This document shows positions 45,792 to 51,770 of a stretch of DNA of 64,000 bases, piece after piece. Both the position numbers and the translations under genes were made by a program. The DNA lies in NCBI RefSeq assembly GCF_000521865.1, contig NZ_JAME01000007.1, positions 98,120-162,119 of the forward strand, given 5' to 3'. Origin of the DNA: Roseivivax isoporae LMG 25204. GTDB taxonomy: Bacteria; Pseudomonadota; Alphaproteobacteria; Rhodobacterales; Rhodobacteraceae. The notes beneath the pieces were generated by a model that had not been told where the DNA came from, ran no database searches, and saw only the letters and a list, made by a program, of their open reading frames with translations. Within the stretch, counting starts at the first letter, position 1, and each line of letters starts with the position of its first letter.

Positions 45792-46244
45792 ATGTCGAGC
45801 GACAGCGACCTCATCAAACTCTATTCGCAGCGCATCCTCGCGCTTGCGGCGGACATCCCGAACACGGCGCGGCTCGACGCGCCGGACGCCACCGCACGCA
45901 AGCGCTCGCCGCTCTGCGGTTCGACGGTCACGGTCGACGTGCAGCTGCGCGACGGCCGCGTCTCGGCCTACGGCCAGGACGTGAAGGCCTGCGCGCTCGG
46001 CCAGGCGGCCGCGTCGGTGGTCGGGCGCAGCATCGTCGGCTGTCGCCCCGAGGAGGTTCGCGCGGCCCGCGATGCGCTGCGCGCGATGCTCAAGGACAAC
46101 GGGCCGGTGCCGGCCGCGCCCTTCGACGGGCTCGAGGTGCTGCGCCCGGCGCAGGACTACAAGAACCGCCACGCGTCGATCCTGCTGGCGCTCGACGCCG
46201 CATCGGCCGCCCTCGACGAGGCCGAGGCGTCAGCGACGGCCTGA
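45792..46244 (+). CDS. IscU/NifU-like iron-sulfur scaffold protein
   Basis: 150 residues. Cluster-ligand cysteines C42 (PLCGST) and C68 (KACALGQA) are spaced as in IscU, but the third position is Ala (NRHASILLALDAASAALDEA), where IscU has Cys. The ATG at 45792 is chosen because the family alignment begins with SDLIKLYSQRIL; a longer frame from 45738 lacks similarity. May be a carrier or a degenerate scaffold. Confidence 0.84.
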   Translation: MSSDSDLIKLYSQRILALAADIPNTARLDAPDATARKRSPLCGSTVTVDVQLRDGRVSAYGQDVKACALGQAAASVVGRSIVGCRPEEVRAARDALRAMLKDNGPVPAAPFDGLEVLRPAQDYKNRHASILLALDAASAALDEAEASATA

Positions 46245-46262
46245 CCGCAAGTCGTTGATCAT

Positions 46263-46303
46263 GAAAAGAAAAAACCGCCGCGCTTCCAGTGGAAGGCGGC
46301 GGT
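46263..46303 (-). terminator. Rho-independent terminator of the small SOS-type gene
   Basis: Stem 46274-46287 / 46291-46303 (ACCGCCGC-CTTCC against GGAAGGCGGCGGT, one bulged G, loop AGT). On the minus strand it is followed by TTTTTTCTTTT. The nearest upstream minus-strand gene is the 36-codon membrane peptide. Confidence 0.88.
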
Positions 46304-46439
46304 GAGTGGCGCGTCTTGCGTGGGACCCGGAGCCCGAATGGGGAACGGGCGGGACAGGCATGTCGGCCGAAACGTGCATCCTTGGGGCGGAATGCGGTTC
46401 GCGGCTCCGGCGCAAGCGGCGCAGGCAGAAAGAGAAACC

Positions 46440-46550
46440 CTAGAGATGCAGTGCTGCGACCAGCAACACGGCCAGTGCGATCCCGCCGGCCGCATCCTGA
46501 GCGAGCGTGGCCTGCGGGCGGGACAATGCGGCCTTGATCTGGTCGAACAT
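46440..46550 (-). CDS. Small membrane peptide (36 aa), LexA-box-controlled
   Basis: Starts MFDQIKAALSRPQ and ends in one hydrophobic helix (GGIALAVLLVAALHL). The ATG at 46550 follows GGAGGTTCCC, an excellent ribosome site. The promoter side holds two LexA-type boxes, and the gene has its own intrinsic terminator. No family recognised. Size, single helix and SOS control recall the DNA-damage division inhibitor SidA of Caulobacter and the TisB-type peptides, but no homology is claimed. Confidence 0.72.
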   Translation of the reverse strand: MFDQIKAALSRPQATLAQDAAGGIALAVLLVAALHL

Positions 46551-46581
46551 GGGAACCTCCATCGCTTCGGGTTGCCCTTTT

Positions 46582-46623
46582 GTTCTCACATGGAACGCGA
46601 TTCGTAAAGAACTTTCTAGGAAC
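46582..46623 (-). promoter_or_regulatory. Two LexA (SOS) boxes
   Basis: On the minus strand, GTTC-CTAGAAA-GTTC (46623-46609) is an exact alphaproteobacterial LexA box (GTTC-N7-GTTC). A second site, GTTC-N7-GAAC at 46596-46582, has the same spacing with one arm inverted. They lie 32-73 bp upstream of the small peptide start and just beyond the recG stop. Confidence 0.75.
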
Positions 46624-46640
46624 ATCCGCGAACGGAAGGG

Positions 46641-51770
<5,130 letters not shown>

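Follow-up and report, generated by a model that had tools for sequence, protein, structure and literature searches.

Directly behind recG in Roseivivax isoporae lies a small gene that we are inclined, with moderate confidence, to read as a DNA-damage-induced unit whose one transcript carries both a membrane peptide and a structured 3′ RNA, the two together holding back cell division. Most of the genera sampled in a large family carry the pair of peptide and RNA, beside recG and under a LexA-type operator, and the locus is a candidate dual-function SOS RNA. Its parts are listed below by their positions in the window, that is, the whole 64,000-nucleotide stretch of R. isoporae LMG 25204 DNA that was analysed.

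46641..48731, minus strand: recG, immediately upstream of the peptide gene; start codon approximate, by similarity to RecG; stop codon at 46641-46643
46630..46633, minus strand: outer GTTC repeat, ten bases upstream of LexA box A; from sequence and conservation
46609..46623, minus strand: LexA box A, GTTCCTAGAAAGTTC (GTTC-N7-GTTC); from conservation and the motif common to recA and lexA promoters
46603..46608, minus strand: −35-like TTTACG (TTTACA or TTGACA in the family); from the sequence logo, promoter role putative
46571..46585, minus strand: second, degenerate LexA-type element GAAC-N7-CAAC, GAACAAAAGGGCAAC; from conservation, a putative LexA-binding site
46556..46560, minus strand: ribosome binding site GGAGG, five bases ahead of the ATG; from sequence
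46440..46550, minus strand: 36-codon peptide gene MFDQIKAALSRPQATLAQDAAGGIALAVLLVAALHL with its TAG stop; from homologues, selection tests and a predicted helix 2-35
46310..46428, minus strand: structured 3′ RNA with a closing stem, starting CUGCCUGCG with UUU just before it; from the covariance model and the arm-pairing test
about 46264-46302, minus strand: intrinsic terminator, hairpin and T-run; from sequence, folding and a simple rule in relatives

The distance from the stop codon to the terminator is 137 bases, and the GAAC-N7-CAAC element overlaps an extended −10-like TGA-GAACAA. On the same strand upstream of recG there are what we take to be a DNA ligase-like gene (48728-50980, minus) and, presumably, a gene for a CtrA-like response regulator (51054-51770, minus). 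A preliminary description of this DNA, made from the letters alone, had claimed the 36-codon frame with a well-placed ribosome site, the box at 46609-46623 and a terminator downstream, and all three are indeed found in the sequence.

The preliminary description had also proposed looking for the gene in other Rhodobacteraceae, and there it proved to be common. With the 36 residues as query (E<=1), matches were obtained in 35 of 61 genomes; 28 of the 30 loci fetched were relatives adjoining recG, and the other two (L028 and L030), chance matches with no recG beside them, were dropped before the counts, as were five duplicate loci (L125, L129, L134, L137 and L146). A search with a profile built from the 28 relatives found the peptide in 346 of 394 genomes of the same family (345 of 393 genera) and, in a class-wide sample, in 5 of 385 genomes, all five belonging to that family. 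At E<=0.001 the protein database yielded 407 proteins. The 120 of them that were listed are without a Pfam domain and, wherever a name is attached, are called hypothetical or uncharacterized protein; the hosts named include Ruegeria, Phaeobacter, Sulfitobacter, Leisingera and Roseivivax. The family had been called unrecognised at the outset, and it has stayed so: at E<=0.1 no Pfam family matched any of the 28 peptides, PADLOC gave no match, and NCBIfam and PHROGs returned stray single-member matches only (E 0.04-0.06).

Further comparisons used 113 loci from unique genomes, namely the 28 of the first search, 25 new ones from the best 30 of the profile search and 60 more from its upper part, a sample that favours good matches. 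In this set recG was identified no more than 400 bases upstream in 111 loci (the exceptions are L161 and L183), and the start codon is ATG in every frame. The relatives' peptides are hydrophobic and 36-45 residues long, dN was below dS in all 35 usable same-genus pairs (one of 36 was undefined), and conservation by codon position runs second > first > third. By these comparative measures the 36-codon frame is a real gene under protein-level selection. A frame arising by chance between recG and the terminator, with which the number of boxes in the window alone would be compatible, is contradicted by every conservation result, whether for the peptide, the operator or codon-level selection; it is thereby ruled out and its probability is practically nil.

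Of the 48 family genomes in which the profile found no match, 17 were searched with RecG. This returned 14 recG loci, one of them cut at its end, while three genomes gave a weak match only. When the 13 readable recG ends were inspected by eye, seven had an N7 box with a peptide-like frame, one (G023) had a peptide-like frame with GTTC-N6-GTTC, and five had neither box nor peptide at that place; the gene is therefore dispensable in some lineages. Behind recG in L217-L220, L222-L224 and L227 the frames are hydrophobic and divergent, about 37-43 residues long, and seven of the eight have an N7 LexA-type box. Given such frames in genomes without a profile match, the count of 346 is to be taken as a lower bound.

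The single hydrophobic helix proposed in the preliminary description is supported by hydropathy and by modelling. The best 17-residue hydropathy was at least 1.72 in 113/113 peptides, with a median start at residue 20, and the first 18 residues carry a net positive charge in 85 of them. M1, D19, G22 and L34 are invariant in the alignment of 28 sequences, which has one internal gap, in one row. For the window peptide AlphaFold2 gave one helix spanning residues 2-35 (mean pLDDT 81.3, pTM 0.40). We predict a single-span membrane peptide with its N-terminus in the cytoplasm.

Judged by the window alone, neither box stands out: GTTC-N7-GTTC occurs twice against 1.09 expected (28 of 100 shuffles reach two), and GTTC-N7-GAAC occurs once, a number reached in 46 of 100 shuffles. 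It is the conservation across loci that makes the box significant. GTTC-N7-GTTC stands upstream of the peptide in 117 of 118 loci, or 112 of 113 after duplicate removal; in L166, the one locus without it, the GTTC copies are spaced differently. In fetched family loci this motif also stands before recA (17/18) and lexA (22/22), and the window's genome contains 111 copies of it versus 30 of the reversed control pattern. The operator logo reads GTTC-N6-GTTCTYAAAAAGTTCTTTACA-N12-ATATGAGAACAAAGGGGCAACA, in which the outer GTTC, at its spacing, is 91-99% conserved per base (112 loci). The claim of a second box, GTTC-N7-GAAC at 46582-46596, held in part: its TGAGAAC half is conserved, whereas the left half is not and the box was mis-registered, so that GTTC-N7-GAAC is rejected as a site. 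The conserved element is instead GAAC-N7-CAAC, and LexA may bind there as well; when 108 loci are aligned on GAACAA, CAAC has its C in 91% and the AAC in 100%. Box and GAAC are separated by 23 bases in 99 of the 113 loci and by 22-24 in 108. TTTACA/TTGACA and TGA-GAACAA, 17 bases apart, would fit a −35 and an extended −10 element; a simple sigma-70 promoter scan found none.

The operator was also searched for on its own, as a pattern of box plus second element, with one genome per species and without use of the peptide. At least 117 stretches matched. Among the 80 matches listed with names, nearly all were from Rhodobacteraceae or the Roseobacter group and the rest from unplaced Alphaproteobacteria or Rhodobacterales. 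In the matches examined recG was upstream in 117/117 and the peptide downstream in 115/117, the other two ending after 24 and 53 bases; among these matches the operator is therefore specific to this locus. It is conceivable that the box serves a different regulator, one that likewise recognises GTTC repeats, as the layout of three GTTC copies with GAAC-N7-CAAC is unlike the operators of recA and lexA. However, its GTTC-N7-GTTC core is the very motif found before those two genes in the family, and we regard this alternative as most improbable. LexA control, as the preliminary description had proposed, is thus well supported by the comparative evidence, and the peptide gene is likely to be switched on by DNA damage.

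The preliminary description overlooked a conserved RNA structure between the stop codon and the terminator. A simple rule places a hairpin and T-run no more than 360 bases past the stop in 109 of 113 loci, at least one of these calls (L011, 78 nt) being false and too early; in the window a simple terminator scan did not report the terminator of the peptide gene. Motifs were counted in the 105 stop-to-terminator stretches of 110-240 nt, with expectations from dinucleotide shuffles: CTGCCT is present in 98 of them versus 10.4 expected, and TGTCCC in 93 versus 11.9. As CUGCCU and UGUCCC, both are repeated in unpaired segments of the RNA, their unpaired probability being 0.766 versus 0.479 for hexamers of the same composition. 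For comparison, the motif of the CcsR RNAs is CCUCCUCCC. The arms of the closing stem pair better with their cognate partners than with non-cognate ones (−24.96 versus −18.17 kcal/mol, n=103; z −21, 0/5000 permutations), while a control window gave a z of −0.5. Cognate arms likewise pair better in the hairpin around TGTCCC (n=93, 0/5000 permutations), and the window RNA folds better than its shuffles (z −3.1).

A covariance model built from 13 sequences, none of them from the genus of the window, matches the window element with an E of 6.3e-7. Its 13 training members carry the repeats in the loops of small hairpins that the closing stem encloses. There are three of these inner hairpins, and the middle one is the weakest, with 79.4% of cells paired. 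At E<=0.001 the model matched 62 of 100 loci, 13 of which are training rows, and missed 38. In the matched loci 92.2% of cells pair versus 74.5% after shuffling, and double-sided changes occur at 24 of 25 pairs, both in an alignment fitted to the model. Among nine whole genomes of the window's genus the model reported four at E<=1 and missed five; given these misses, the RNA diverges fast. RNAalifold retrieved the terminator from both MAFFT alignments, A2 and A3, but of the remaining structure no more than four closing-stem pairs, in A2, probably because the inner stems differ by insertions and deletions; for this reason the arm test and the covariance model were used instead. Rfam gave no match up to E 1 at 46200-46700 of the window, and in nine relatives it gave two up to E 0.1, both outside the element and below gathering. 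These are weak matches to Ysr141 (L007:116-333, 31.3 bits; L122:69-313, 22.1 bits; cut-off 196), probably due to chance. On comparative grounds, the stretch from stop to terminator is a conserved, covarying RNA structure.

In Paracoccus saliphilus (L404, about 7.2-7.6 kb) the peptide is shortened to 31 residues, as read by eye, with its N-terminal part missing; the operator is kept and the CTGCCT/TGTCCC repeats are largely lost. Judging from this locus, evolution may be able to part the peptide from the RNA. Further copies of CTGCCTGTCCC in the window's genome were considered and rejected: there are six sites versus five for the control pattern and, as all six also lie inside open frames of more than 90 codons, they look like chance.

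As to function, SidA, DidA, YneA, ChiZ and SosA are small membrane proteins that inhibit division and are induced by the SOS response or DNA damage, and the first three of them target FtsW or FtsN (PMC4211646, PMC13396833). DinR, a LexA-controlled RNA from the 3′ UTR of dinI, silences ftsZ in Klebsiella (PMC10907235), and dicBF encodes a small protein and an ftsZ-silencing RNA on one transcript, both of which inhibit division (PMC10448788). SulA (Pfam PF03846), which the peptide family does not match, gave no match in any of the 37 genomes searched, 23 of them from the same family, with a positive E. coli control. From the known small-membrane-protein inhibitors, the lack of a SulA match and the precedents of DinR and dicBF we infer that the locus is a division checkpoint with two arms, one a peptide and the other an RNA, of which the peptide arm is the more likely. 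In the proposed mechanism, LexA lying over the −35-like and −10-like elements would keep the promoter shut until RecA triggers LexA cleavage, and a single transcript would then give the 36-residue membrane peptide and the structured 3′ RNA. The peptide, predicted to be one helix with a positive, cytoplasmic N-terminus and hydrophobic from residue 20, would, on the analogy of SidA, DidA and YneA, engage the FtsW/FtsI/FtsN complex that builds the septal wall. The 3′ RNA, kept in the mRNA or released as a small RNA, would expose CUGCCU and CUGUCCC segments that may pair with the ribosome sites of mRNAs, possibly that of ftsZ, and both products would hold cell division back during DNA repair.

Each of these precedents resembles the locus in part. 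SidA of Caulobacter is likewise a LexA-controlled, very short inner-membrane peptide of an alphaproteobacterium, a likeness of architecture only; by prediction from sequence, the peptide here is also a short SOS-controlled single-span membrane peptide, of 36 residues versus 29 in SidA, and the available part of PMC4211646 mentions no structured 3′ RNA for the latter. DinR shares with the present locus a LexA-controlled mRNA with a 3′ RNA (PMC10907235), here one that is structured, runs from stop codon to terminator and is a candidate for pairing with the ftsZ ribosome site, LexA control being assigned here by motif only; it differs in its host gene, dinI, and its clade. The dicBF transcript of the E. 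coli Qin prophage combines a small protein and an sRNA in the way proposed here, yet it is prophage-borne and repressed by DicA rather than LexA, and DicB has 62 residues (PMC10448788). In Rhodobacter sphaeroides, ccaF1 is a small-protein mRNA whose 3′ UTR gives the sRNAs CcsR1-4, although the main text of PMC8625941 does not mention LexA, SOS or DNA damage.

Two other readings of the products deserve consideration. The peptide might be the only product, with the 3′ structure stabilising the mRNA or tuning its decay and the repeats binding a protein, and this we hold to be quite possible, if short of probable. The repeated loop motifs would also fit a protein-binding RNA, and the covariance model has a single strong match in the window's genome, namely this locus (next best E 0.64). 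On the other hand, two distinct motifs repeated in unpaired segments exceed the needs of a stability stem, and R. sphaeroides does have sRNAs derived from a 3′ UTR, such as CcsR1-4 behind ccaF1 (PMC8625941). Alternatively, the peptide could be a TisB- or DinQ-like SOS toxin that disturbs the membrane potential and slows growth, the 3′ RNA serving as a cis element that tunes the mRNA. The anatomy is the same (a LexA-type box, a very short protein and one hydrophobic helix), and TisB and DinQ of E. coli are described as SOS-controlled membrane peptides. Yet non-systematic inspection recognised no antisense RNA gene, and the invariant D19, G22 and L34 suggest a specific partner; we find a toxin of this kind rather unlikely. 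The repeat motifs could also serve a cis role, which speaks against the two-product reading.

All the ingredients have counterparts elsewhere; what is new, as far as the literature was searched, are the two families, of peptide and of RNA, and their combination under one LexA operator: no description was found in open-licence literature, and the gene is not named in the available text of PMC6473078 (the LexA network of D. shibae), PMC4809877 (sRNAs of R. pomeroyi), PMC5089854 or PMC13384398. The locus makes damage-induced division arrest directly testable in laboratory strains.

For the RNA arm of the proposed checkpoint, ftsZ is the candidate target. In most clade genomes its ribosome site reads (A/G)CAGGCGGA, and that of the window's genome can form 11 consecutive pairs, one of them G-U, with UUUCUGCCUGC. 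By pairing with the 5′ motif ftsZ ranked 10/512, or 18/512 if any start codon was allowed, and 8/505, 21/299 and 7/304 when this was rerun over three genomes. With the inner loops the ranks in the three genomes were 130/505, 145/299 and 45/304, and with motif and loops together 28/505, 86/299 and 22/304; restriction to predicted-unpaired segments gave 358/533 and 28/224, the ftsZ of G245 not being recognised in that run. Mean duplex energies were −18.15 for ftsZ (n=14), −14.87 for recA (n=15) and −12.98 for lexA (n=18). AGGCGGA precedes ftsZ in 29 of 31 RNA-bearing genomes, in five of seven with a divergent peptide, in two of four without the peptide behind recG (G088 clearly, G025 doubtfully), in none of three where recG was not recovered and in none of nine outgroup genomes; G016 gave no ftsZ match. 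Its presence in G088, which lacks the peptide, counts against ftsZ as the target, and common descent alone could explain the co-occurrence of AGGCGGA and the RNA. Pairing of the 3′ RNA with the ftsZ ribosome site is thus no more than suggestive. In its strongest form, the proposal would have the peptide jam the septal wall synthase while the 3′ RNA, through its repeated antisense segments, shuts off ftsZ translation, which we consider improbable; if true, this dual strike would represent the SOS division checkpoint so far missing in Rhodobacteraceae and an independently arisen chromosomal counterpart of dicBF and DinR. The ribosome site of ftsZ shows strong conservation across the family, in a non-canonical form that often reads ACAGGCGGACAG (ftsZ loci L234-L255 and L299-L327).
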